From positions 19,236,850 through 19,300,849 of the forward strand of contig NC_044925.1 of assembly GCF_003576645.1 (NCBI RefSeq): a stretch of DNA of 64,000 bases, given 5' to 3'. A program made the position numbers and the translations under genes. Positions 2,869 through 62,538 of this stretch are shown here, one piece after another. Below the pieces are notes generated by a model that was not told where the DNA came from, searched no databases, and worked only from the letters and a program-made list of their open reading frames with translations. Positions within the stretch are counted from its first letter, which is position 1, and each line of letters opens with the position of its first letter. This DNA comes from Ipomoea triloba (Eukaryota > Streptophyta > Magnoliopsida > Solanales > Convolvulaceae).

Positions 2869-5133
2869 CCGGTTTCCACCTTCTTGAACCTCAACTCTCG
2901 AACCAGCAGGATTCTCCTCATTCTGCTCTTGTTGCTCACTTGTTTGCACTTCAGTATGCTCTGGTGAATCTGGAATATCTATTATCTCAGGAGCAACTGG
3001 TGCACTCCACCTTTCCCTATTAACCATATCGATGGGAAAGCCTGGGAGTTGGAGCAACAAAATTTCACCCTCTCGAACTGTCTGAGCTTCATCTGTTGCA
3101 TTCGAGGGTGTGGACTCAGGTGGTGGCAGTAGTAAGACAGAGTTAGGTGCCACCTCATGTGCTTCAGAGGTCTCGGATTCACCTCTCGAAGCTACCTGGT
3201 CTTCTAGAGCAGATTCACTCACTTGGGACAAGGGGATTGCTGCAGTTGGAGTAGGAGTGTCAGCATCATCTCGAGCAACCCCAGAGGTCTCTCCTGGACC
3301 TCTCGTGTGTTCTACACTTTGTCCCAAGGATATTGCTGTGGCAAGCCTGATATCCTCTCGAAATTGAGCATCTAGTTCAGGATCTTCTTCAGGCTCGGCT
3401 TCATCTTCTTGTGCATCAACAGCTATGCCCTTTCCTTTGTCAGATCGACCAAGATTACTCCTGATTACTTGCATCTCATGGGCACGGTTTTGAAGCTCGT
3501 CGGCTGGGATTTCAGTGAGATCTAACCAGTTTAGTGCAAATCGTTCCTCAGCCTCCATCTCTGCTGCTCTTGAGATCAATTGATCAAAGGGACCTGTTCT
3601 CCAGTTGATCCAGCGAAGTACTCTGGAGAAGTCGTCCAAACTCGATACATTCTCAACACTTTGATTCAATCGAGATGTGATTTCAGCATTCAGCTCATCA
3701 GAGTCAGCAGGTAGGATTTCTGTTGCTGATGCACACTCCACAGCTTGTTCAGTTATCTCTCGAACAACCGAGAGATCATGTGTCAACCCATCATTCAGAA
3801 AAGCTTGCACTGGGTTCCTGACCACAGTGCCCTGACCATCAGCAGCCACCACACAGTCTAGATCTTCAGCTGCTGGAATATCTACCTCTCGAACCACCTG
3901 TCGTGGTTCCTCAACAATACCCTGTACTGGATCACTGATCCCAGTACCTTCAACTTCTCGAGCCTCCTCTTGAGGCAAACCAACAGATTCATCAACATCC
4001 TCAGCACCATCAACAGCAAGTATATCAACACTTAAAGTTCCTGACAGGGACTTGGTAGGGGGCACTCTCTCAACCTCAGTGGCCAGTGTAGCCTGAGGTT
4101 CCCCCTGGGCTTGTGCCCTGTCCTCAAATGGTACTTGTATAACGGACGGTGTCACCTCTCGAACCTGGGTGACAGCAGCAGTCTTGGTCCTCTTGGCCTT
4201 CCTTTTCAATTCAACCCTCTTGACTGGGGTGTCCAAAAGCTCGTCATCAGAGCGCTTCTCCTTAGCTGGGGCTTTCCTTTTGCCCCTTCCCTTAGGCTTT
4301 GAGGGTGAAGATGCATCCTTAGCACCTTTTGCCTTAGCTTGAGGTTTCGTTCTACCCATATAGGTATTCCGATGAACCTCTCGCCCTTCCCTCAGTTCGA
4401 AGCCCTTCAGTCTCAATAGAAATTGAACAACAAAGCCAAAACCAACCTTTTTGTAGATTGTCAGGTCGGAGTTGGAAACTGAGCTCTGCACTTGGTGTTT
4501 GAGGCAGTCGAAGATGATGTGAGCCCAGTCCAACTTGTTGTTGTTCCAGATGGCGTGGAGGATTTTCAGAGTGTCCAGATTGACTTCGTCTGTTCCGGAC
4601 ACCTTGCCGAGGATGAATTTTATGATGAGCTCGGCGGCTAGGGCAAACCTCTCCTTCAAATGAAATCTGCGGAGGGCAGAGGATGCTCTGGGTGGTGCAG
4701 TCTCCAATCGGATTTTGTCCCAAAACTCCTGCTTATCCATGTTGTAGTCCGATAGGTGCTTGACTGCCTCCTCCGACGTAGCAAAGTCGAATGCTGCTCG
4801 TAAATCACCCACAGAGATTGTTATGTCTATTTCGTTGAAGCGGCTTTCAATCTTGCCCTTCGTGACCTTGGCATGAGCGAACCATTCTGTGTAGTCGAGG
4901 TCATGAATGGTTCGGTAGTCATGCGTCATGTACCGCATTAGTCCTGCCTTCTCAAATTTCTTCAAGACTCTCTCCGCCATTGTTGGATTTGGCGAGTGGG
5001 TGATGAAGCCATCTTTGTCAAGGATGCTTCCCGCCTTGACTTGTTTAATCTGAGAGCGTATGTGGTCTAGCTCTCTCTGGTATGCACTGGAGGATGAAGA
5101 TGAAGATGAAGAAGATGATGATTCAGACGCCAT
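2869..5133 (-). CDS. Extra ORF in the envelope-like position of the copia element, 3' end lost at an N
   Basis: About 755 codons are open before the N at 2868. The start ATG (5133-5131) has a good plant context (TTCAATGGCG) and is followed by a serine run (residues about 5-16). Residues about 20-250 look like a folded domain with aromatic and hydrophobic spacing (for example FGFVVQFLLRLKGFEL). Residues about 257-330 are rich in Lys, Arg and Ser with a likely nuclear localisation signal (GRGKRKAPAKEKR). The rest is acidic, low-complexity and probably disordered. I see no signal peptide and no convincing membrane span, so calling it an envelope protein rests on position alone. Sireviruses often carry an extra ORF here, of unproven function. 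A TATA box about 110 bp upstream suggests its own transcript. It could be a retrotransposon accessory protein or a captured host gene. Confidence 0.6.
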
Positions 5134-6767: not shown

Positions 6768-9700
6768 TCATCCCAATTCTATCATTCCCAATTCTAACCT
6801 TAGTTGAGAGAATCTATTTTCACATAACGCTTTTGTGAAAATATCTGCTAGTTGCTCCTCCGTTGCAACATATTCCAAAGTGATGTCCTTTTTCTCAACG
6901 TGGTCTCGGATGAAGTGATACTTAATATCAATATGCTTTGTTCTGGAGTGTAACACTGGGTTGTGGGTGATGGCAATAGCACTTGTATTGTCACACATAA
7001 TTTTAACCTCCTTACACTCAACACCATAATCCATTAGCTGTTGCTTCATCCATAAGATCTGAGCACAACAACTTCCAGCTGCTACATATTCTGCCTCAGC
7101 AGTGCTTGTAGCTATCGAATGTTGTTTCTTGCTAAACCATGAGACAAGTCTTCCACCTAGAAACTGACATGTCCCTGATGTGCTCTTTCGATCTATCTTA
7201 CAACCGGCAAAGTCCGCATCTGAATAACCCATAAGTTCGAAAGATCCACCTTTCGAATACCAGAGCCCAACACTCTGCGTACCCTTTAGATATCTAAGAA
7301 TCTTTTTGGATGCATTTAGGTGACTTTCCTTAGGACTTGCCTGAAATCTAGCACATACACCTACTGCAAAGGATATGTCTGGTCTACTTGCAGTTAAATA
7401 AAGAAGAGATCCGATGATACCTCGATAAGTGGTTTGATCGACCTCTCGACCTTCGCTGTCGACATCGATACGTAGAGAGGTTCCCATAGGTACTTTGACT
7501 GAGGATTTCCCTTCTATGTTGTATTTCCTGAGCAGATCCTTGGTGTATTTCTCCTGGTTGATGAAGATACCTTCCTTAAGCTGTCTCACTTGTAGTCCAA
7601 GGAAGTAGTTGAGCTCTCCCATCATGCTCATCTCGAACTTTCCTTTCATCAAACTGGAGAACTTCTCGCACAAGTCTGGATTGGTGCTACCAAAAATGAT
7701 ATCGTCCACATAGATTTGCACCAATAAGATGTGATCCCCATCCTTAATCCTAAACAATGTTTTGTCCACTAGGCCTTTGGTGAACCCACACTGAAGTAGA
7801 AAAGAGGATAAGGTATCGTACCAAGCTCTTGGAGCTTGTTTTAAGCCGTAGAGTGCCTTCTTCAACTTGTATACTTTGTCAGCTCCTACGTCCTTCAAGA
7901 AACCCGGAGGTTGTTCAACGTACACCTCTTCTTCGAGAAGTCCGTTCAGAAAAGCGCTCTTGACATCCATTTGATATACCTTAAAGTCTTTGAAGGCGGC
8001 ATATGCGAGAAAGATGCGTATGGCTTCGAGACGTGCCACTGGAGCGAAGGTTTCATCAAAATCTATTCCTTCCTCCTGACAGTAGCCTTTGGCAACAAGT
8101 CTGGCCTTGTTCCTAACAATAACTCCATCCTCATTCATCTTGTTTCTGAAAACCCACTTTGTACCAATGACATTCTGATGATGAGGTCTCGGAACTAGTT
8201 CCCAAACATCGTTCCTCTCGAACTGATGAAGTTCCTCTTGCATTGCTTGCACCCAATCTGCGTCGCTTAGAGCCTCATCGATCACCTTAGGCTCTATTTG
8301 AGATAGAAAACAAGCAAACATGCTTTCTCTGTAAGCTGATCTGGTTCGAACTCTGTCACGTACATCTCCGATCACTTGATCAGCAGGGTGACTTCTCAGC
8401 CATCTTAGGTCGGGTTGCGGCTCCTCAGTTGATACTTCCATTGAAGGTTGAGATATGGGTTGAACATCTATGATCTGGTTTTGATCAACTGAGTCAGGCG
8501 CTTTCTTCTTGGTAGACTCTTCATCATCTGATTCTGACTGGAGTTCTGCTACGTCTCGAACTATCGACTGCTTGTCTTCGAGAGGTAAGTTTGATCTCTC
8601 GATAGACTCTGGCTGATCTTCCTCAGCAGCTTCCGTTGTCTTTGATGGTTGATCTGTTGATGCCCTTTCATCAAAGGTAACATGTATGGACTCTTCAACC
8701 ACCAAACTCCGCTTGTTGAAGACTCTGAGTGCTTTGCTTGTCGATGAGTATCCCAGAAATACTCCATCATCTGCCTTTTCTTCAAAAGTTCTTCGTTGAG
8801 TCTTCCCATTGTTGTGAATATAGCATTTGCACCCGAATGAGTGGAAGTGGCTTACATTCGGTTTTCTTCCATTCCACAACTCATATGGAGTCTTTCCAAC
8901 TCCTTTTACTATCAAGGACCGATTTTGGGTGTAGCACGCTGTGTTGATTGCTTCTGCCCAAAATCCTTGTGATATGTTGGCTTGCGAGAGCATGGTCCTT
9001 GCGGCTTCTTTGAGAGTTCTGTTCCTTCTTTCAGCAACCCCGTTTTGTTGAGGTGTTCGAGCAGCTGATAGTTGATGATGAATTCCGTTCTCGTTGCAGT
9101 AGCTCTCGATTACTTGATTAACGAACTCTCCACCTTGATCTGACCGGATCTTTAGTATCGAGACTTCCTTTTCAACTTGAACTTGTTTCAAGAGATTTGG
9201 TAGGGCAATTTTTGTCTCGCTTTTCTTGGTTAAGAACACGGTCCAAGTGAATCTTGTGTAGTCATCCACTACCACAAGAGTGTACTTCTTTCCCTTTATG
9301 CTGGGTGGATCCACTGGGCCAAATAAGTCCATGTGAAGAAGACTTAATGGTCTAGTGGATGATGTCTCGGCTTTGCTCTTGAAGGAGGATTTGATCTGTT
9401 TGCAACGTTGACATGCCTCACAAATTTTATCCTTTCGAAACGTCACTTTGGGCAGTCCTTCCACTAGGTTCCTCTTAGCAAGCTTGTTGATAGTTTTAAA
9501 GTTCAGATGACTAAGCTTACTATGCCAATCCCAGCATAAGTCTTCCTTGCTCCTTGCTAGCATACATAGGGATGGTTTTGCAGACCTCCAATCCACTATG
9601 TACATGTTTCCTTTCCTTGCTGCTTCCAAGACGACTTCGAGAGATTCCTCGCTCATAATCTGGCATTTGCTTTTGGTGAAGATAACTTTGTAGCCCTTGT

Positions 9701-13850: not shown

Positions 13851-14109
13851 GCAGACCCTTATTCCTCCAGTGTTGTCCCATGCTTTCTTCTGATCTGTCT
13901 ATATGATTACAACACACGAGACTTCTAAGATGTTCAAACAAATTTCCCTCAAGCTTAAATATTTTCCGAGTTGAGCTCAAAGTTACCCGGTTGTATTTTC
14001 GCTCTTGGTTTACTTGTCGAACTTACAGCGTTTTGCCTATGTATCGAGACTTGGGGATTTCTACTTAACAGTTGGTATCATCAAAACCTATTACATGATG
14101 TTCCTAACA

Positions 14110-15019
14110 CATATGTTGTGGGATTTCAACTTCTGCATGTCCGTTGTTTGGTCCACCAATCTTACCATCGCCGATCTCCACGATCCAATTAGCAAATGTT
14201 CTTACTGATTCTAGATCCGCATCACCAACATTGCTCAACCTAAGATTCTTCGTAAGCCTCAAGACTTTGCAGCTATTCCACAGATACGAAGAATTAATTG
14301 CTAAAGATACAACATCTTCTCTTGTACCCTTTGGGATCACCGGTAGTATTTGTCTAAAGTTTCCACCTAAAACAACTATTTTCCTTCCAAATGTTTTTGT
14401 TGAACTGTTAGGGTCTACAAATCGCAACAAATCCCTCATAGTTCGATCTAAAGCTTCAAAACAATGTTTGTGCATCATTGATGCTTCATCCCAAATTATT
14501 AAACTCGCCTTTATCAATAATTCAGCTACTAAATTAGTACCTTGTTTTATATTACAGGTTGAGTCTTCATTTATTGTAATTGGTATTGCAAATCTTGAGT
14601 GTGCAGTTCGTCCACCAGGTAACAACAAAGAAGCTATGCCACTTGATGCAACATTTAAAACAATTTTACTTCTAGATCGCAATGTACAATGCTCTCCATA
14701 AAAATGTCTTTCTAGTCCCACCATATCCATAAACAAAAAACAAACCACCTAAACTACTTGAAATGTCTTGCATAACAGTATCAAAAATAGCCCTTTGCTC
14801 TTCTGTTAATTGTGAACACAACTCATCTGATTGTTGTTTTAAATATTCACAATCATATGATAATTCTTCTAAAAGCAATGTATTATGACCTAATCTACAA
14901 TTATCCATGTTTGGCAAAGACATTGGATGAAAGTCTTGTAATGATATATTTTGAAGTTGCAATAGTTTTTCCAACTCCATCAAACCAAAATTCTTCTTGT
15001 CTTCTTCTATTAGAACCAA
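14110..15019 (-). pseudogene. Helitron PIF1-like helicase fragment, broken by the copia insertion
   Basis: The minus strand encodes the middle of a Helitron RepHel helicase. One frame (15019-14672) holds the N-terminal helicase region (LTEEQRAIFDTVMQ) and Walker A; a second (14748-14104) continues with [22 protein letters not shown], Walker B-like IIWDEASM, and GGNFRQILPVIPKG. The two frames overlap, so a frameshift separates them. Walker A reads GGTRKTF where GGTGKTF is normal, a change expected to abolish ATP binding. The C-terminal part is cut off exactly at the copia LTR edge (14109). It is a dead relic. It is printed a second time at 15890-16799. Confidence 0.85.
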
Positions 15020-21651: not shown

Positions 21652-22083
21652 CTCAGCAGTGCTTGTAGCTATCGAATGTTGTTTCTTGCTAAACCATGAG
21701 ACAAGTCTTCCACCTAGAAACTGACATGTCCCTGATGTGCTCTTTCGATCTATCTTACAACCGGCAAAGTCCGCATCTGAATAACCCATAAGTTCGAAAG
21801 ATCCACCTTTCGAATACCAGAGCCCAACACTCTGCGTACCCTTTAGATATCTAAGAATCTTTTTGGATGCATTTAGGTGACTTTCCTTAGGACTTGCCTG
21901 AAATCTAGCACATACACCTACTGCAAAGGATATGTCTGGTCTACTTGCAGTTAAATAAAGAAGAGATCCGATGATACCTCGATAGGTGGTTTGATCGACC
22001 TCTCGACCTTCGCTGTCGACATCGATACGTAGAGAGGTTCCCATAGGTACTTTGACTGAGGATTTCCCTTCTATGTTGTATTT
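21652..22083 (-). pseudogene. Stray copia pol piece (RNase H and end of RT)
   Basis: Matches 7095-7526 of pol with very few changes and encodes the stretch including [18 protein letters not shown]. It is bounded by Ns at 21651 and 22084. It is a contig from this or another copy of the element, possibly the interior of the second copia insertion whose LTR starts at 20353. Confidence 0.82.
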
Positions 22084-22406: not shown

Positions 22407-22519
22407 CACTACAACAAACTGTTTTTTAGCAACATATACTTAGCGGCGGTTATATATAACTGCCGCTAAATGAGTATTTCGCGACAATTATACAAACCGC
22501 CTCCAGATCATGTACTAAA
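22407..22519 (+). mobile_element. CACTA transposon left end, extra copy
   Basis: CACTACAACAAACTG followed by subterminal GCGGCGGTTATATATAACTGCC-type repeats, matching 23083-23197 but at a different insertion site (flank AGATC against GAACA). It stops at the N at 22520. Confidence 0.8.
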
Positions 22520-22872: not shown

Positions 22873-23640
22873 NTATGAATTGAACATAGTAAATGATTCA
22901 TATTATTAAACATGATGCACATGTAATTTAATTTTATGCATATTAATCTTTGCTTTTATAGTTTTATTAACATATAAAATGAACATTATGAACCTATTAT
23001 AGAGTGAATGAAAATAGATATGATGTGCATATAGTTTAGTATTTATGTACATTAAAGTTTAGTTTTATGATCATATAGAACACACTACAACAAACTGTTT
23101 TTTTAGCAACATATACTTAGCGGCGGTTATATATAACTGCCGCTAAATGAGTATTTCGCGACAATTATACAAACCGCCTCCAGATCATGTACTAAAACTA
23201 AAAAAATTAATTGTTAGTAACTATAATCCATTGAAAGTATTAATGTGGCGTTAATTAAGTGCATATTTTAGTGGCGGTTATATGATCACCGCTAAAAGTC
23301 AAACTAAAATTACTTATTCAAATGTTTAAAACAAAATAATTTCATTAACCCTTCCTGTTTTCCACCGCACCCTACAACTGGTCTTCTCTCTCCAAAATAA
23401 TCGGTTGCCAAAAACACTGCTCTTCTCCCATTATATCCAGTCTTTTCTCCCAAATTCCAATTTTTCTCAATTCTTCCACAATCCACAGTGATTTCTAAAA
23501 CACGAAGAAGCAGCAATCATGGAATCGTTCATTCAATTCTTTTTTTCGTAGCCAATGGAGTTCGGTTACTTGTTCGTCGCAGTCGAAGTTCGATTTCTTG
23601 TTCGTCGCAGCCGGAGTTTGATTTGTTGTTCGTCGCAGCC

Positions 23641-23706
23641 GAGGTTGGGAAGAGTAGTTTGCTGCTCAGTTTCACTTCAGATACATTTAAGGGCCTTTCT
23701 CCTACG
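23641..23706 (+). pseudogene. RabC/Rab18-type small GTPase exon fragment
   Basis: Encodes VGKSSLLLSFTSDTF then KGLSPT, which I recognise as the end of the P-loop and the switch I approach of plant RabC (Rab18) GTPases, where the usual text is GVGKSSLLLSFTSDTF. It is followed by a GT donor (CCTACG|GTAACC). The glycine-rich start of the P-loop is missing, so the capture junction falls inside the G1 motif. It is joined in frame to upstream sequence of unknown origin from 23488. It cannot encode a GTPase. Confidence 0.8.
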
Positions 23707-24360
23707 GTAACCCTACTAGTCTGCTACTTTACTGCACCGTGCGGAGTATATATTTGAATATTATATCTAACAAATGGATATATGCATGTATAGAATTGAA
23801 CCTGCAAATTATTGTTGTATGTTATAATTTGAGCATAGGTTAGTACATTTCTGATCCCTAAACCCTAATCCCTCATAGGTGAAATTGTATACAGTTGAAT
23901 TTTGGACATTTGATTTGAGGGCATTCGGACATATGATGGGTTAAAGATTCTTCCTAACATCAAAGATTGTAGTCAATATATTTCAAGTGTAGCAGACTTG
24001 AAATACTTGTTTTTTAATGAATTGGTTTTACCATCAGATATTGTAGTCATACACATTATGATGCTGGAAATGGCTCATTCATGAATTTAGGATATTATCC
24101 AAGCTGAGCTATTATATGATATCTTTATTGTAGAATGGACCATCCTTATATTTGAGTTATTTAAATTCTAAAACCCTTGACTTGCAGATTTATTTATTCT
24201 GTTGATCTTGCATCAGTTACAATCAGCAAGAAGCTAGGAAGCTTATTTGATGTGCAGGTATGCCAAGATTTAAAAGGTTAATAGGTAAGAGTCGACCAAG
24301 GTACGAAAGTTTGAATATATCAAACAAATTAATTTAGTTCCATTTGTTGACAAATGAAGA

Positions 24361-24779
24361 TGGTTGATTGGTTGTAACAAGGACCTTAGCTCCTTTAAAC
24401 ATTACCATGGAAAGCATAAAGGATGTATCGGACATTCTAAGGCTGCCCAATGCAAGTTCTTGTTAATGCCAGTGAGCATCACTTCTATGAACAATGCAGC
24501 AGGTATATATGCGCTTATTCTTTATGCAATACATAGGCATTCATATCCTCTTTCATGACGTGTACAATGTAATGGACTTTTATCATATCCTCTTTCATGA
24601 CGTGTACAATGTAATGGACTTTTATCATGCATGCTTCATATGGTGGCAGAATTTGATGACAAAAAGCACAATTGCCACAATATGGTGGCAGAATTTGATG
24701 ACAAAAAGCACAATTGCCACAAACGCCTTGCAGAACACAATGAGTGTAGACAAAAAGCCTTTGAACCTAGCACATTGGG
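24361..24779 (+). pseudogene. SBP-box (SQUAMOSA promoter-binding-like) zinc-finger fragments
   Basis: Bases 24367-24502 encode GCNKDLSSFKHYHGKHKGC then IGHSKA, the first zinc-finger half of the plant SBP DNA-binding domain, ending at a GT donor. Bases 24690-24779 encode AEFDDKKHNCHKRLAEHNE, the end of the domain, followed by GTAACC. The middle (FCQQCSRFH region) is missing. Two different 42-bp tandem duplications lie between and in the fragments (24542-24625 and 24639-24722). Known role of the family: nuclear transcription factors of phase change and flower development. This piece lacks zinc ligands and cannot be a full factor. Confidence 0.85.
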
Positions 24780-25008
24780 GTAACCAAGATTCTTCATTCT
24801 TGTTCTAATCTTGTCTTTGTTATGATTTGATCTGCAATTGTTAATTCATTCATGTGGTAGGGGCTGCAGCAAGGTTCTTAGATATGGCTTTCCTAGAGGC
24901 TACCAATGCTATTCCACTTTAATTTCCTATAGAACATTCTTTACTTTTATACTTACTGTCACTTCTATTTGATGGTCTGAAATACTGAAGTGGCATTCTT
25001 CATTTCAG

Positions 25009-26047
25009 AAGGAATCTTTCATGCCTTCTGGAACAACCCCTGGTTTGTGTATATTTTAAAATGTTCTCTAATGTCTTATTTTTGTGTACACTTGTTTTTT
25101 CTAGTTTTTTAATTGTCATGAATTGGCATCTGGTATCCATATTAGCAGATTTTTATGTGTGTGGATTAGGTTTCCTTTAAATAGTTTCAAATTATTCATT
25201 TGACTTGTTTCCTTACAGAACCAAATATTGTGATAAACTATCTTCAAAACCTAAGGTCATCCGAGGAGTTGTTATGGGAACAGGTTTTGTTTTGATCATA
25301 AGTTATTTTCATTCTTAGTACTTGTTGTTCTTGTAGTTTTACCATACTAATTTTCCTTCATTTGTTTTTATTTCCATGGCTTTACCATCAGATAGAGAAA
25401 GCTAAGAAAAAAGAAACTGCCTTTATAGTAAATATTGCAAAACGAGATCAAGAGATAGCTGAGTCAAAGGTAAGAAATGTTTTGTACCCTTGTATATTAT
25501 GATACACAAGGCCACAAGGGAATTTATGTACCCTTGCAGATGCATGGATTGGCAATGAAACTAGCTTTGCAGAAATCACAAAATGCAAAACTCAAAGTCA
25601 CTTTGAAGGTTTGTATTCTTCTATGGTTTTCTTACTACTATGTAGAGTTGTATGATATTTTATTTTATTGTTTATTTTTGTTGTATCTTTTGCACATGTG
25701 AGTACTGCTTTATGGTCATGTTAGTTATATCTCTTGTTCTATAACCTATTTGGGTTGTTTTGCTGATAAAAGCAATTTACATTAATAATTTCATTGGTGT
25801 ATGAATTGTAAGGATGTAGAGAGCCATACAAAGATGTGGCTAGAAACCTTTTTGATAGTATGTGCAAGAATCAAAGTCGTCATTTCTATTTATATGTTTT
25901 CTGAATGTCGTAATTGTTAGCTTTCTAATTTTGATTTTGAATCCTATGATGAATGAATGGTTATTTGTTTGTCTTCTGTTATCGGTTGCAGGATTATGCA
26001 AACAAATAGAGGGACTGACTAATGATGTTGAAATATCAAATGAAGTG
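25009..26047 (+). pseudogene. FIP37 (WTAP-like m6A writer subunit) exon set
   Basis: Five pieces with good splice borders match FIP37 in order: 25009-25042 (KESFMPSGTTP), 25219-25283 (EPNIVINYLQNLRSSEELL), 25392-25469 (KKKETAFIVNIAKRDQEIAE), 25540-25608 (MKLALQKSQNAKLK) and 25992-26047 (GLCKQIEGLTNDVEISNEV). FIP37 is the plant WTAP homologue, a coiled-coil scaffold of the N6-methyladenosine writer complex. Here the N-terminus, several middle exons and the C-terminus are missing. It is therefore a captured fragment, not a working gene. Spliced transcripts could still carry antisense or small-RNA potential against the true gene. Confidence 0.85.
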
Positions 26048-26262
26048 GTAATTCCCCCTCTTCCATTATGTATTATTTCTGTTTTTATGTAGAACTGTAG
26101 AAGCACTGGGCTAGAGGAACTTTTCATGCCTAACATAGTAATGCCTCCTGCTTATACTTTATAGTAGTTATTTTACTTGAGGCAGGTTTTTTTTATAGCA
26201 GTTTCTTTCAATATGTATTTACACTATAACTTGTCTCTTTTGAGTTTTTCATCTGTCTCCGG

Positions 26263-26398
26263 GACCCAAATTGTATGCCTTTCTCCAGTTGCTGTTGTTT
26301 TATTTATTTGATATTGAAGCATTATTGATTGACCCAAATTGTATGCCTTTCTCCAGTTGCTGTTGTTTTATTTATTTGATATTGAAGCATTATTGATT
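26263..26398. repeat. 68-bp tandem duplication
   Basis: The unit beginning GACCCAAATTGTATGCC is printed two times in direct order (26263-26330 and 26331-26398) and appears identical. With the two 42-bp duplications it makes three small tandem duplications in this CACTA element. Bases 26399-26560 contain a possible exon after TTTTGCAG with a product I do not recognise. Confidence 0.85.
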
Positions 26399-26982
26399 TA
26401 GCAGATGTCTTTTCCTTTTGCAGTGCCATGCTCTCCAAGCTCCTCAGTTGTTTGAGTCCTCGAAGATTCAAAATACTACAAGTCATGACTATCAATTCTC
26501 ATCGAGGGTGAAAAATGGTATTCATCGTCTAGTGATGATGTAAATGGACAATTTCCTTTTGCATGAAACCATCATATTAATGAATAAACTACTATGTTGT
26601 TTTATATTTTTCATTTAAAATATTTTTCAGTTATGTATACAGTTCAATTAATATGTAGACCGTTGTACATGAATATTGTTTGATATTATTTGACAAATAT
26701 TCGTTACAATTGATTTTCTTTTCAATTAAATGTGTATATAGAGTTTGTTTGTGGTTGCAATGCAAATTTGAATGTAAACTTAATTTCATGAGGATTATAA
26801 AAATAAAAATAAAAATGTCAGTTCAAAAATTTTCATTACAATTAGATAAGAAATAATTTAAAAATTAATTTAAAAACTAAAGCTTAATTTAGAGGCGGTT
26901 ATATAACCGCCACTGATATTTAAAGTAAAAATAAATAAAATAATTTAGTGGCGGTTATGTAAGTGTCGCTAAAAACTGTACA

Positions 26983-28545
26983 TGACTCCCAGGTAATGTT
27001 TCCAAACATCTTGACTCCCAGGTAATGTTTTCAAATAGCTTGATTTTGTAATACCATTCCTACCAAAAAAAAAAACACATAGAGTAATGATAACTATACT
27101 TATTAACAATTTTAGTTTAGGTATTACATATATAATTCATAATAATTAAATACAGAAAGACGGATTATATTATAAATTCAATAAATTTGTGAAAGAATGT
27201 AGAGTTATTACTTTATTTGATAGTATAGTTAGTGCAATGGAAAGGACATGTATTATACCAAACATATGTTGTTACGGGATCATTCGAAAATATTGAGGAA
27301 AAATAACATCTCCCTGGTCATATTGTTTTATTTAATATTGCTCAATTGTATATTGTTTTATTTAATAGGAATAAAATCATGGCCATGTTTGGTCATATTA
27401 CTATATTTTGTATTTATTGTTATGCATTTTTTATGTTGTTAGTATGTTGCCTTTTTTTTTTTTTTTTTGAGTTCTTTTCAGCTTTTTGCTTGGTTTTTAA
27501 ATTTCATGATCACTACACCAAAAAGGTTATTTAGTGGCGGTTAATTTGTTATTTAGAGGCGATTCAAAACCGCCACTAAACTGTTTAGAGGCGGTTCTCC
27601 AACCGTATCTAAATAGTGTGTCGCGAAGGATTTAGAAGCGGTTTTAGACAAGTGTGGGAATTAATGGAAAACTTATTTAGCAACAATTTTTAATGCATTT
27701 AGCGGCGGTTTTGTAATGCCTCGAATAATACTTAAGTATTTGAATTATTATTATTGCCGCGAATAATACTTATCAGTGACAGTTTTTAATGCATTCGCGG
27801 CAATTACAAAACCGCCGCTAAATGCATTAAAAACTGTCGCTAAATAAGTTTTCCATTAATTCCCACACTTGTCTAAAACCGCTTCTAAATCCTTCGCGAC
27901 ACACTATTTAGACACAGTTGGAGAACCGCCTCTAAACAGTTTAGTGGCGGTTTTGAACCGCCTCTAAATAACAAATTAACCGCCACTAAATAACATTTTT
28001 GGTGTAGTGATCATGAAATTTAAAAACCAAGCAAAAAGCTGAAAAGAACTCAAAAAAAAAAAAAAAAAGGCAACATACTAACAACATAAAAAATGCATAA
28101 CAATAAATACAAAATATAGTAATATGACCAAACATGGCCATGATTTTATTCCTATTAAATAAAACAATATACAATTGAGCAATATTAAATAAAACAATAT
28201 GACCAGGGAGATGTTATTTTTCCTCAATATTTTCGAATGATCCCGTAACAACATATGTTTGGTATAATACATGTCCTTTCCATTGCACTAACTATACTAT
28301 CAAATAAAGTAATAACTCTACATTCTTTCACAAATTTATTGAATTTATAATATAATCCGTCTTTCTATATTTAATTATTATGAATTATATATGTAATACC
28401 TAAACTAAAATTGTTAATAAGTATAGTTATCATTACTCTATGTGTTTTTTTTTTTTTTTTTGGTAGGAATGGTATTACAAAATCAAGCTATTTGAAAACA
28501 TTACCTGGGAGTCGAGATGTTTGGAAACATTACCTGGGAGTCATG
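26983..28545. repeat. Large palindrome with arms of about 0.75 kb
   Basis: The left arm (from ACTCCCAGGTAATG at 26987) is the reverse complement of the right arm (to about 28545), with few mismatches, through a poly-T/poly-A tract and into a small CACTA element at the centre (about 27760). The arms are the Helitron-like family also seen at 18199-18608. The right side continues as that family to its 5' end near 28850; the left side is cut at the CACTA junction. Confidence 0.9.
27511..28009. mobile_element. Small palindromic CACTA element (499 bp)
   Basis: Begins CACTACACCAAAAA and ends TTTTTGGTGTAGTG, perfect terminal inverted repeats, and is filled with GGCGGTT/AACCGCC subterminal units arranged as one long hairpin. 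Flanks are GAT on the left and ATC on the right, so no 3-bp direct duplication is seen; the flanks themselves are inverted copies. It has no coding capacity. Confidence 0.85.
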
Positions 28546-49780: not shown

Positions 49781-52140
49781 ATGTGGCGACTTCTAAACTT
49801 TGACGTCCAATTAAGTCACCCACCCGTTGAAAGGCTAAGTTTCCATTTACCAGACTGTCAATCTATTGTGTTTGAAGATGATGATCAGATAGAAGATGTT
49901 CTAAATTGGCCGACAGTAAATCAAAGCATGTTCACCACATGGTTTGATGCTAACAAGAAATATGAGTCTGCTAAGGAGTTGCCTTATACTAACATGCCGA
50001 ACAAATTTGTCTGGAAGAAAGATATTAGAGAATGGCATCCTAGGAAGATGGGATTTTCCATTGGACGAATATTTTACGTACTTCCAGGAAGTGGTGAAAT
50101 TTATTACTTGACATGTCTCTTGAATGTAGTCCGCAGTCCTACCAATTTTGAAGACATCAAGTAATTTAATGGTGTGATATACCCAACTTTTAGAGATGCA
50201 TGCTATGCAAGAGGATTGTTAGATGATGATAGAGAATACATTGACGCAATAAATGAAGCAAGTCATTGGTCTACTGCCCAAGCAATGAGGAAATTGTTTG
50301 TTATATTACTAACCTCAAACTTGGTGAATTGGCCGGAGAACGTGTGGAATCAGGTGTGGCATCACCTATCAGAGGATGTACAATTTAACAGACGAATACA
50401 TTTGCAAGAAATGGGTAATTCTTTAATTTTTTGTAAACTCATCTTTAATATTTGAATTATAATATTAATTCAAACTTTTAAAATCAACAATGCTCTAATT
50501 TTCAATTTTCCAAATGCAGATTTGTGTTTATCTGATGATGAGAAGAAAAATTTGGGATTGATTGAAATAGAGTGTTTGTTACAGTCGTACAACAAGCTTT
50601 TGAAAGATTACCCCCAAATGCCAATTCCAAACTATGATAATGCATGACACATGGATAACCGTTTGTTGTTTGATGAGCTAGCGTATGACTGCCAAGCTTT
50701 ACGATAGGACAACGACGCGAGAAGATGGAAAGACAATTAAATGATGAACAAACAGTTGTATACCATACAATTCTAAGTGATCTACAACAACACAACGATG
50801 GTTCATTCTTTGTTTATGGATATGGAGGTACAGGAAAAACATTTGTTTGGAAAGCATTATCTGCAAAAATATGGTCCGAGTGAGATATTGTCCTAAATGT
50901 AGCATCCAGCGGTATTGCGTCATTGCAATTACCAGGAGGTCGGACTGCACATTCAAGGTTCACAATACCAATTGCAGTTAACGAGGACTCCACATGCAAC
51001 ATTAGCCAAGGCCAAACTAATAATTTTGGATGAAGCACTAATGATGCACAAACACTACTTCGAGTCACTGAACAGAACCATGCGTGATCTAATGCAATTC
51101 AGCGATCCTCATAGCGGTGAAAACAAATTCAGCGGAAAGACTGTGGTCTTAGGTGGTGATTTCAGACAAATATTGTCAGTGGTGCCGAAAGGTTCAAGAC
51201 AAGATATTGTTTCTGCTGCAATCAACTCTTCCTACTTGTGGCAATCATGTAAGGTGCTTCGATTAACAAAGAATCTATGTCTTAATACTAGGGAACCAGG
51301 TGTTGATATGTAAAATATTCACCAATTTGCATCATGGTTAGCTACTATAGGAGATGGAACATTAGGAGGACCTAACGATGATTATGTGAAGGTCGAAATT
51401 CCTTCCGAAATGTTGTTTCCATCTGCTGGTGACCACATTGCCGCAATTGTTGATAGTATATTTCCAATGTTCAAGGAGGGAGGTTGCCAATAACAATACA
51501 TGGAAAGTCGTGCTATTTTGGCTCCAACACTAGATGTGGTCATTGTAGTAAATGAATATATGAGTGATTTGCATGTTGCTGAGAGCAAGACCTATCTAAG
51601 TTGCGACACTGTTTGTAAGTCTGATTCAACAAATGGTATCCTATATGATATGCACACTCCAAAATTCCTAAATGGGTTGAAAGCTTCTAGCATACCTAAC
51701 CATCATTTGACTTTAAAGATTGGATCTCCGGTAATGTTGTTGAGAAATATAGATCACTATGCAATGGTACAAGACTTATCATTACTAGGTTATCTGATCA
51801 TGTTGTAGAAGCAAAGATTGTCACTGGATGCCAGCCAAGTAGTCTTGATACCAAGGATGCCAATGACCCCCACTGATACATGATTGCCATTTAAATTCCA
51901 AAGAAGACAATTTCCTCTAATGTTGTCATACGCAATGACTATCAACAAAAGTCAGGGGCAAACTTTAACACATGTAGGGTTACTATTAAGGAAACAAATC
52001 TTTGTTCATGGTCAATTATATGTATGTGGTTGCTTCAAGGGCTAGAAACCCTAAAGGGTTAACAATTTTAATACCCAATCAAGGTGGAGAGAGTAGTAAT
52101 TATAGTACCAATGTTGTGTACCATGAAGTTTATAATAATT
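49781..52140 (+). pseudogene. Helitron RepHel C-terminal half with PIF1-like helicase
   Basis: Bases 49781-50450 encode the pre-helicase region (SHPPVERLSFHLPDCQSIVF, then FVWKKDIREWHPRK and GRIFYVLPGSGEIYYL). Bases 50750-52140 encode the helicase: intact Walker A (YGYGGTGKTFVWKAL), [18 protein letters not shown], Walker B-like ILDEALM, GGDFRQILSVVPKGS, and near the end QGQTLTHVG and GQLYVCG. There are in-frame stops (for example at 50162 and 50881) and several frameshifts, so it is dead. The Rep nuclease part is absent. In the living family this protein drives rolling-circle transposition. It is less complete than a full RepHel but longer than the relic at 14110. Confidence 0.88.
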
Positions 52141-58632: not shown

Positions 58633-61600
58633 CTACACTGCTGCTTTCACAACAATGGGACTTCTCACACGGTGCTTTTTATCAGACCATTTTAACACCC
58701 CAAATGCATAATCAGCACTAGCGTTTTCCCCCTTTGCCTTGAGAGTAACTTTGAAACTTTTCTCCTCGCCAACCTTTTCGAACTTAAGAATGTTGGGGTT
58801 GACAGTGACAGAGAATCCAACCGGGCTACGAACAGAAGCTGTGTAGGTAGCCGGAGAGCCGACGTTTTTCAGAGTTCTGGTGACGGTGGCTGCGCCTTTG
58901 AGGTGAGGGATAGCGATTGAGGGATAGTTGAAGGTGGAGAGAGTAATGTGGTGAGGGCACTTGTATGGTGTCCCTAAAACCCTTGTGATATCAGTTTCAT
59001 TGTAGCCTTGTGCGCAGATGAAGTTGACATAATCTTTGAGTTTCAAGTCGTAGACCAAGCCAGGATCTGCGGCACAGTTTGGGTTTATGTGTCCAGCTCC
59101 ATATGCAAATGGGGTTGCTTCCACTCCAGTTTTATCGTCAGTTATCGCCTTCCCCGAGTTGGTTTTTACTGTAGCTGTGAAAGGTAATGCCCATGTTAGT
59201 CTAAAATAGTGTTGTCTAAAATTATTGACAAAAACATTATCCCAATCATACTAATAAGATACAAGGAAGATGAATATTAGTTAGAGAAGCTAAGGAAACA
59301 AAGGATAAACCCTAGATTCATATCTGAATACGATCAAGACATTATAATAATAAAAGGATCTTGATAATGTTAATTCTCCCATGCATTCGCCAGTACAAAA
59401 TATGTATAGAGATTGTATATAAAGTGTGATCTTGAATGGGAAAATAGCCCTCCAATTCATCCCTTTTATTTACTGTTCTTGAGTAGTAACACAAAGAGAA
59501 GGGAGAGAGGATCTTTCTAGAGAGAGTAGGGGAAGGAAAAAGCCCCTTACATATGAGGACAAGGTCAATTATATAGGATGGGGTAATACCCCTATTCGTA
59601 TACAGTGTATGTATTAAATACTTAGGGCCGTACCCGGGGTATATTCCCTATCAGATCTATTTCCCAATGGAGTATATATGTACAAAATTTCCCACAAATT
59701 TGAGAGTTCAGTGTATTGAGAGAAAAGTATAAGGGTGCGTTTGGTTCGCACAAGGGAATCGGAATCGGAATGGGTATCAAATACTTGGTAAGGGTAATGG
59801 ATTTTGGTGAAAGTATTTAACATGTTTGGTAGTTGGGTGGAATAAGAATGACTATTAATAGTTTGGGAAGAAATGAGAAAGAGAAATGAAACCCTTATTT
59901 AATAAAGGTATGTGTTTTCTCATTAATGGATATTCTAAACTCATAGGATACTCAAAACCTATGCAATCACTTTTATACCCATTCATTATGCCTAAACCCA
60001 CCAATCAAACACACCCAAGTGTTTATTACACGGTTCTAAGTTCACTTAAGAGTAGGTAAGTTATAATAGACAGATAGGGATTGGAGATCAAGTCTATGTG
60101 TAAAAGTGTTTCTAATTAATTAACCTTTGTACTCTATTAACCATGCTCATAGTGATTTTCCTAATACGAGAACTGCATGCCTTGCAGATTAGAATTTTCT
60201 AGAACTGCGCGCTAAACGCCATCCAGTTACGTACAATTGTTAACATCACGGCAGTCCACACAATTTTTCAGTGCATGCATAAAAGTAAACTTGCAAGACA
60301 TCTTGAAATCATTAAATAATACATTATTATATACCGGTGGTCATAATAGCAGATCTGATTTCTGCAGGGCTCCATGAAGGATAGACCGTTTTGAGAAGGC
60401 CAACAACACCAGCTACATGAGGACATGACATTGAAGTCCCTGATAGTAAGTTGAATGAAACAATCCTCTTATCGTAATCATTATCAGACGGCCCAGTGGC
60501 TTCAGTGAAAGCAGCTATCACATTCACTCCAGGGGCAGATATATCAGGCTGGAATACATACATAAAATAAATAAATAAAAAAATCACAGAATGGCTCAAC
60601 ACATTTACGCAAATCAAAGACCTTCGCCCGACCTTGAGAATCTCTGGATTAACGGTGTTGGGGCCTCTTGATGAGAAAGCTGCTATAACTGGAGCTGGCT
60701 TCACTCCCAATAGTGTGTTTGGATGAGTAATGTGAGCCACAGGATTCCTACTTATCATGTATTATTATATCATGTATATGTAACAGATCAGAATCTGATT
60801 ATTAGTCTACGTACACGTGATCTTAATTACCTGGTTTTATTAATGTAATCAAAGATTGCAAGTCCATCTGAGTAGGTGACATGTGTAGCTGGGAGAAAGT
60901 GTTCATCAGCCTCAATATCATTCCCAAAATACTCATCATTTGCAAGAATCATTCCTACAGCACCAGCCAAAGCAGCTTGGTGGCTCTTATCAGTTCTGGG
61001 AATTCCGCCTCGTAGGCAAACCAAAACTTTTCCCTTTACCTTTTCCGGGTCCAGAGTTCCAGGCTTACAAACCAGACTGCACGAGTTATATATAGCAGTT
61101 AGTATCACATTAACTAGCAGTGAATAACAAATGGAGTTTTAATTTATCCTTACGCATCTTGGCTTGAAATCGATGCATTAATTCTAGCGGATGCACCAGA
61201 AAGAAGTGGATAGAACTTCCCAGTTGGAAGTTTTAGCTGCGCTGCACTTTCTCCCTACAAACACAGACATTTTTTTTTAGTACTACCATGGTTGAAAAAA
61301 TCGCTAGGCGCTCCCCGAGCGCCTAAGACGGGGATTAATCGGCCCCTAGGGTCAGTGCATTTTTTTTAAAAAAAAATTTGTCAAGTATTTTCAATTTTTA
61401 AAGACAAATAATTATAAATTATATAATAATACTAAAATATTAAATATTAACCTAAAAAATAAAGAGTTTGTACAATTTAGGGTTATTTCGCTCAAAACGA
61501 TGTTATTTTGAGTAAAATAACCCATTAAAAAAAGAAAAACAATAGTTAGTTGGTCGACTAAGCGGCCTAGTCGGTACCTAGGAAGTCTAGTCGGCGCCTA

Positions 61601-62538
61601 AGGGGTGATTAGACAGACTCCTAGCCGGCCGCCGCCTAGACCACCATTTAAGGAGATACGCTAGGCGTTCGACTGGCACCTAGCGCCTAGGCGGGGATTA
61701 ATCGGCGCCTAGACGAGATTTTTGCAACACTGAGTACTACTGACTGTTGCAAAGAGAAGCAAATTAAAGAACGGAAACTAACTGTGTAGTGTTTTTTGTT
61801 TCCCAACACTACATTACTCTGAAACTGTCTGTCCATGGTGTTTGCCCCAACAGTGATCAGCCAGGGTGCAACATTAGTGACAGAACCGGCATCAGGTCCA
61901 TCATTACCAGCTGCGGCAACCACAACAATACCATTCTTTACAGCATGAAAGGAACCAATGGCCAAACCGTCTTGAAAATATGGGCCAGGGTCTTCTCCTA
62001 CAAGCGATACAGACAGCACATCAACACCATCGTCAATCGCCCGATCAAAAGCAGCCAGGATATCTGCATCAGAGCAATAATCTTCGGCCCAGCAAACCTT
62101 ATAAGCAGCTACCCGAGCTTTGGGCGAGCCACCCTTAGCTGTTCCGTTGCCCAAACCGAAAACATTTGCCCCAGGAACAAAATTACCACCCGCTGTTGAT
62201 AAGGTATGAGACCCATGACCACCAACATCACGTGGGGTGAAGGAACTACTGGAATTAAGAGTGCCACCCGCAGAAGAATACCCTTTGTTAAAGTATCTAG
62301 CTCCAATGAGTTTCCTTTGTTATCCAAATGATAAAAACAAAGCAAGTTCAGAACTAAATTTTTTATCTAAATTTCAGATAAGGAAAACACAAACAAATTA
62401 AAGCTAAAAAAAATAAATAAAATAAAGACCTGTTGCAGTGAAAGCTTTTATCTTTCTGATTCTGGCAAATGCCTTTCCACCTTTTGGGAATTGGTCCAAA
62501 TCCTTCGTCACTAAAGCTTTTTGATTCAGGCCATACTC
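58633..62538 (-). CDS. Subtilisin-like protease (SBT5 type), 3' seven exons
   Basis: Secreted serine protease of the S8 plant subtilase family. Exons on the minus strand: 62538-62430, 62314-61783, 61254-61154, 61076-60831, 60747-60633, 60548-60335, 59174-58633, all with GT-AG borders. They encode VWPESKSFSDEG; catalytic His in GGHGSHTLSTAGGN; the AAGNDGPDAG oxyanion region; the PA domain (LVCKPGTLDPEKVKGKVLVC); catalytic Ser in LLSGTSMSCPHVAG; and the C-terminal Fn3-like domain ending RSPIVVKAAV. The text, especially GARYFNKGY and NFVPGANVFG, is closest to the SBT5.3/AIR3 group. The signal peptide, I9 prodomain and catalytic Asp exons must lie beyond the window. No break is seen, so the gene is probably functional. 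Introns carry two MITEs. Confidence 0.9.
59733..60016. mobile_element. hAT-like MITE in a subtilase intron
   Basis: GGGTGCGTTTGGTTCGCAC on the left and CCAATCAAACACACCC on the right are inverted ends typical of plant hAT MITEs. It lies in the 1160-bp intron 59175-60334. Flanking 8-bp copies are imperfect. Confidence 0.65.
61287..61732. mobile_element. hAT MITE in a subtilase intron with 8-bp target duplication
   Basis: CATGGTTGAAAAAATC on the left and GATTTTTGCAACACTG on the right are imperfect inverted ends. The element is flanked by AGTACTAC (61279-61286 and 61733-61740), an exact 8-bp duplication, as for hAT. Its interior has many GCGCCTAGGCG-like words and forms strong secondary structure. 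Confidence 0.85.

Follow-up and report, generated by a model that had tools for sequence, protein, structure and literature searches.

The CACTA element Tgm-Express1, in the wp allele of soybean, is described as holding exonic and intronic regions of five genes, with F3H intron 2 as its site and chimeric spliced RNAs as its products (PMC1947982). The Tpn1 family of Ipomoea nil is described as a set of non-autonomous CACTA elements with conserved ends, 28-bp terminal repeats, 3-bp target duplications and captured host genes (PMC5105172). In Arabidopsis, rice and maize, Pack-CACTA and Pack-TYPE elements hold captured pieces inside their ends (CACTACAA in Arabidopsis), their members have different interiors, and 5-nt duplications are given for CACTA elements of rice and maize (PMC8903248). 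The account of CACTA elements in Chenopodium reports pieces of host genes such as AP2 and a 3-bp duplication (PMC8978399). Here we describe a stretch of 64,000 nucleotides from Ipomoea triloba (C10:19236850-19300849; hereafter the window), in which positions 23083-26973 are very probably a damaged copy of a non-autonomous (Pack-type) CACTA transposon that carries pieces of RabC/Rab18, SBP-box and FIP37 genes. Coordinates are those of the whole window, L-numbers denote loci taken from the host genome by similarity, and the genome searched comprises 461,989,178 bases in 17 contigs.

The element is ordinary in kind, a Pack-CACTA with an unusually readable capture history, and it is real and well supported. 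As far as the sources describe them, the known systems share different features with it. Like Tgm-Express1, it combines parts of exons and introns from several unrelated host genes within one CACTA element, but the five genes there are others, and chimeric spliced RNAs were found there, whereas the window copy is damaged. It shares with Tpn1 the genus, conserved ends, 3-bp duplications and captured host genes, a likeness in described features. Captured gene pieces amid shared ends, and relatives with different interiors, also mark the Pack-TYPE elements, but the duplications of the present element are 3 nt rather than 5 nt, and three separate source genes have contributed to one element. The Chenopodium elements differ in that one gene per element is reported and that the elements have transposase domains. 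The subterminal motif of Tpn1 is GACAACGGTT, while the repeats in our element are TTTAGYGGCGGTT; because of this difference, the element family is probably other than Tpn1. Among the matches listed for literature pairing Ipomoea trifida with CACTA, none was about such an element by title, and pairing FIP37 with CACTA listed one paper, in which each is mentioned once; some literature searches failed, and we make no strong claim that the element is unpublished.

The 5′ end region occupies 23083-23227 (forward strand, as are all parts of the element), beginning CACTACAACAAACTG and continuing into subterminal TTAGCGGCGGTT-type repeats, and it is common to relatives with other interiors. A genome-wide count of the terminal 15-mer gives 22 occurrences, 11 on each strand and two of them in the window, compared to 0 for the reversed control, and the 5′ terminus at 23083 is sound. 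It is preceded by ACA, the target duplication of a complete copy on C15 (L009). Short direct and inverted repeats of one repeat family, D1 (TTTAGNGGCGGTT type), are found in both end regions, and the family's own 3′ region with its subterminal repeats (26421-26973) is likewise common to relatives with other cargo.

The C15 copy has 4257 bases, the Rab-SBP-FIP37 cargo and ACA/ACA flanks; a copy on C11 has the same cargo and ATA/ATA flanks. Both run ∼238 bases past the point that matches 26973 and end ...TTTTTGGTGTAGTG. A search for further copies with both ends and 3-bp duplications, proposed in a first-pass annotation made from the letters of the window alone, yielded identical 3-bp flanks in all seven family members that were obtained with both ends (C15, C11, two on C6, C9, C3 and C7), and the termini of all seven start with CACTA and end with TAGTG. 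This count omits the window copy, in which only the 5′ end is in place, L040 and L042 (3′ end missing or beyond the DNA taken), L027 (an older relative on C11 with no 3′ end in 8.5 kb) and L032-L039 (eight loci of 3,015 bases each); in the C9 member, L015, two positions 84 bases from each other could be the 5′ end, and the flank count takes the outer. Over the 209 bases that separate the last N of the window from the 5′ end, the window and C15 are identical. The two copies therefore go back to a single insertion and represent either a later duplication or misplaced haplotypes. The flanks of the C15 copy (L009 1456-1570 and 5883-6236) match parts of the window's left flank at 72-79%, and the flanking sequence suggests an insertion into a tandem-repeat array.

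The Rab, SBP and FIP37 pieces all lie in one direction with introns kept, as the first-pass annotation had it, and because introns are kept, the capture was of DNA and not of mRNA. That annotation had also claimed fragments of three unlinked host genes, and the genome search for parent loci that it called for agrees: the apparent parents lie on separate chromosomes, FIP37 on C14, SBP on C7 and Rab on C1 or C5, where Rab18-type genes were found on both. Nor did we find parent loci lying at this position without flanking CACTA ends, since complete copies with both ends and 3-bp target duplications exist. We considered that the three pieces might align best to one native gene, and rejected this, since separate sources were found.

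The FIP37 piece was searched with a sequence that we took to be Arabidopsis FIP37, an assumption borne out by a top entry 100% identical to it, and 120 listed proteins of the 570 reported then served as tblastn queries against the 64-kb window. Four of these have printed matches, which are colinear and linked (24907/24976-25041, 25218-25469, 25537-25596 and 25991-26053), with a linked E of 3e-16 for the best protein against the 64-kb target. The joined FIP37 pieces match Pfam Wtap with E 1.7e-7 but 31.7 bits, where the cut-off is 35, and match solved WTAP chains only at E 0.07. The FIP37 identity is nevertheless secure, and the donor identity is also firm. The exons of the C14 gene lie in order over L012 729-7407; segment A of the element (24975-25509; three exon pieces with introns) is 90.75% identical, gaps counted, to L012 2965-3536, and segment B (25534-26061; two exon pieces) corresponds to L012 6713-7024. 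Between them, from 25509 to 25534, ∼3.2 kb of the C14 gene is missing, and residues ∼160-246 (∼87 residues, encoded by internal exons) are skipped. Thus, the five FIP37 exons with introns that had been reported are present as exon pieces, but without these internal residues. Uncorrected divergence from C14 is 2.9% (10/342) and 7.1% (22/309). GT donors are present at all four FIP37 introns checked, while the exon differences, counted by eye, are mostly amino-acid-changing and include one frameshift; the exon changes show no coding constraint.

The SBP piece matches its Pfam family at E 1.6e-10, above the cut-off, and solved SPL chains at E 1.3e-10, in agreement with the SBP domain named in the first-pass annotation, and its identity is secure on these profile matches. 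Its best source is a gene on C7 (L013), to which the exon 1 piece and the intron that follows (24369-24510) correspond from L013 3043 onward; the exon 2 piece (24646-24783) holds an exact 42-bp doubling, probably an assembly error, and a third segment (24787-24920) corresponds to L013 4273-4413. The junction of the second and third segments skips ∼890 bp of the C7 gene, although this gap at 24787 could instead reflect growth of the C7 gene, in which repeated motifs are seen there by eye. We rejected the doubled SBP motif as biology: the C15 copy lacks the exact 42-bp doublings seen at 24541 and 24638 and has six at other spots, the C11 copy has none, and a related Ipomoea batatas protein has one unit. 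Because they are absent at the same spots in C15 and C11, the 42-bp doublings are treated as assembly errors, and a 68-bp doubling at 26263 is probably one too. In a C6 member, L014, ∼69 bases (3653-3721) come from the same SBP region (62 bases of the SBP gene) and are 90% identical to both the window and the C7 gene, which may represent either an independent capture or an exchange between elements.

The Rab piece was found with a query that we took to be Arabidopsis RABC1, at E 2e-9 by tblastn (23596-23778) and at the same place at E 1e-4 in a genome-wide search. The exon 1 piece itself spans 23596-23720, its start overlapped by a 28-bp tandem repeat of ∼3 units (23559-23646). The first-pass annotation had seen a P-loop exon here, and the Rab identity holds while the P-loop does not: compared with the C1 and C5 genes, a 15-nt deletion takes out its start. 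Exon divergence is 14.1% (12/85) to C1 and 17.6% (15/85) to C5, and the C1 similarity reaches further, into the intron (23753-23829). A locus on C3 (L058, at 7.74 Mb) is Rab18-like, with a stop codon and changed residues, and its intron still resembles that of the element's Rab piece over 36 bases. Downstream, 23995-24200 is 85% identical to C11:20.685 Mb and its source gene is unassigned; that locus was ruled out as a Rab parent when tblastn with RABC1 found no Rab there.

Several results weigh against the assignment of this stretch to a three-gene CACTA element, and most of them concern the Rab piece, the SBP donor and the 3′ end. The Rab piece matches Pfam Ras at E 0.017, below the cut-off, it has no match to solved structures at E 0.001, and its window reading frame has no match in the protein database. 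The alignment to the Rab genes covers just 73-91 bases of exon 1 and shows 14% divergence from C1, so that a different paralogue may have been the donor; the Rab identity is weaker than those of FIP37 and SBP, but real. The SBP segments differ from C7 unevenly, by 22.8% (38/167), 20.4% (19/93) and 9.0% (12/133), and because these values are uneven and higher than that of Rab to C1, C7 may not be the direct donor; it follows from the same figures that divergence does not place the SBP capture after that of Rab. The C11 copy contains three N-joins, across which its middle is repeated.

At the 3′ end, the first-pass annotation had placed CACTA-type ends at 23083..26975; the 5′ end stands and the family has both ends, but no TGTAGTG is present at 26975 in the window copy, and the terminus is absent from its expected place. 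Homology to the family stops at 26973, and ∼238 terminal bases are missing, 217 of which, ending ...TTTTTGGTGTAGTG, lie detached at 27793-28009, and again in inverted form at 27511-27729 (reverse strand). These are the two arms of a palindrome of ∼1.56 kb (26981-28545), with arms up to 99% complementary, that holds two inverted CACTA 3′ termini. The window copy would have lost its 3′ end through rearrangement or misassembly, and the palindrome is likewise either a real rearrangement or a misjoin. The palindrome is flanked by a repeat that recurs at 18.2 kb and 19.9 kb.

The relatives of the element allow parts of its history to be ordered. They have roughly the first 95-145 bases in common, as well as the 3′ region beginning with 26421, and their interiors differ; the 5′ leader region (23228-23539), whose origin is unassigned, is common to older relatives on C6 (L025) and C11 (L027), and 26202-26415, which contains most of the exact 68-bp doubling that C15 and C11 lack, is common to the C9 and C3 members (L015 and L016). 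These two hold different cargo in the same ends, with reading frames that by eye presumably resemble a Raf-like protein kinase, and many further loci contain pieces of their 3′ part. In L025 the shared portion of the 3′ region is smaller than in the other relatives; this locus has the Rab half, with the same 15-nt lesion, at 15.6% divergence (144/922), and has no match to the SBP or FIP37 genes. Because it holds Rab and neither SBP nor FIP37, the Rab piece was apparently present before the split from L025, with loss of SBP and FIP37 in L025 as an alternative. Divergence by segment is 0.3-1.3% between the window and C15 and 0.6-2.3% between the window and C11, or 0.3-2.3% among the C10, C15 and C11 copies. 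Since its divergence from C14 is below the Rab and SBP values, and the divergence among copies is lower again, FIP37 is the youngest cargo and the spread of the element younger still. We had also ordered the captures by divergence as Rab, then SBP, then FIP37, and withdrew this, because the divergence of SBP from C7, which reaches 22.8%, exceeds that of Rab from both C1 (14.1%) and L025 (15.6% over the half); the withdrawal leaves the odds of the transposon assignment unchanged.

The SBP and FIP37 pieces were taken up as DNA and lack internal parts of the C7 and C14 genes. If this reading is right, the cargo may have been gained by aberrant excision or repair between neighbouring elements. Such a model, in which neighbouring elements are excised as one or aberrantly repaired, is described in section 9 of PMC8903248 and in PMC13317346. 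In the window stretch the element has no long reading frame of its own, stop-free frames reaching at most 118 aa, with the limit that no transposase profile was run over the whole element and no search aimed at a transposase gene was made. It would have been moved in trans by CACTA transposase made elsewhere, and its cargo would be a passenger with no coding role.

A tentative alternative, which we consider distinctly less probable than the reading above, is that an SBP-FIP37 chimera formed first outside it, at a locus like one on C13, and was then captured whole by a CACTA element that already carried Rab. The C13 locus (L011 2540-4574) holds SBP and FIP37 with the same internal deletions, at 2.7-4.4% divergence from the window by segment, and has no match to the Rab half or to the CACTA ends; its right border with the window at 26192 lies ∼10 bases from 26202, the start of the match to the C9 and C3 members, which slightly favours a chimera that preceded capture. 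However, C13 is equally readable as a truncated old copy of the element: it carries a separate deletion between the SBP and FIP37 parts, its left border is placed only within ∼120 bases, and 117 bases beyond its right border an abundant repeat sets in. A search with the C13 flank was swamped by a high-copy repeat, and the flank could not be traced. The chimera also holds short repeated pieces of its own. It is much more doubtful, and indeed very improbable, that the arrangement is an artefact in which separate loci were joined in a repeat-prone assembly. The first 23 kb of the window has 12 single-N positions (the last at 22873), several of them beside duplicated pieces, exact 42-bp doublings occur in the window and at other spots in C15, and a palindrome follows the element; but no such doublings are seen in C11, the same cargo order is seen between proper ends at C15 and C11, and its SBP-FIP37 part at C13, with divergences of 0.3-4.4%, and an Ipomoea batatas protein joins SBP and FIP37. 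Misassembly could account for the doublings and for the loss of the 3′ end, but not for the chimera.

That same protein bears on whether the chimera could be a working gene or regulatory RNA, transcribed and able, by way of small RNAs or chimeric transcripts, to change the level of FIP37 (m6A writer) or SBP, which we consider improbable, though marginally less so than an artefact. Of the 5 short proteins reported from 6 candidates, two I. batatas entries annotated as FIP37-like match the joined FIP37 pieces best, with identities of 96% and 92% across 64% and 48% of the query, and one of these, of 138 aa, joins SBP and FIP37 pieces and is closest, by eye, to the C13 version. The GT donors are kept, and 21-mers of the element match the FIP37 gene in sense at 296 positions (12 for SBP), so that small-RNA action on FIP37 may be possible in principle. 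However, the frameshifts and stops, the mostly amino-acid-changing differences and the broken P-loop all speak against a working gene, 21-mer matches in antisense number 0 for FIP37 and 0 for SBP, and annotation is not evidence of expression. As improbable as the artefact is the more specific proposal that the SBP-FIP37 cargo is transcribed in Ipomoea and that its RNAs dampen the FIP37 (m6A writer) or SBP parent.

Elsewhere in the window, the left third (1-22873) contains 1.7-kb repeats at 13991/15771 and 17093/18837 and Copia-like pieces at 21652 and 22521, and its assembly is unreliable. A second copy of the element at 22407 was considered here and rejected, since only 114 bases align (at 99%), the stretch is cut by single Ns, and its neighbours repeat 7095-7526 and 7864-8215. 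By eye, reading frames at 14104-14748 and 50915-51313 are like fragments of a Helitron PIF1-type helicase, and those at 58633-62154 on the reverse strand are like exons of a subtilisin-like protease gene. Scans for tRNA genes and against Rfam were unproductive.

Gene capture by CACTA elements is already known, and an element with cargo that can be dated piece by piece is useful for probing the mechanism of capture. One genome holds the likely parents, a relative with Rab only, an SBP-FIP37 locus without CACTA ends, and complete copies flanked by target duplications, so that a stepwise history of capture can be tested. The related cargo annotated as FIP37-like genes in Ipomoea batatas is a warning to annotators. 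If RNAs of the cargo did dampen the FIP37 or SBP parent, a transposon would have gained a handle on host RNA methylation or phase change.

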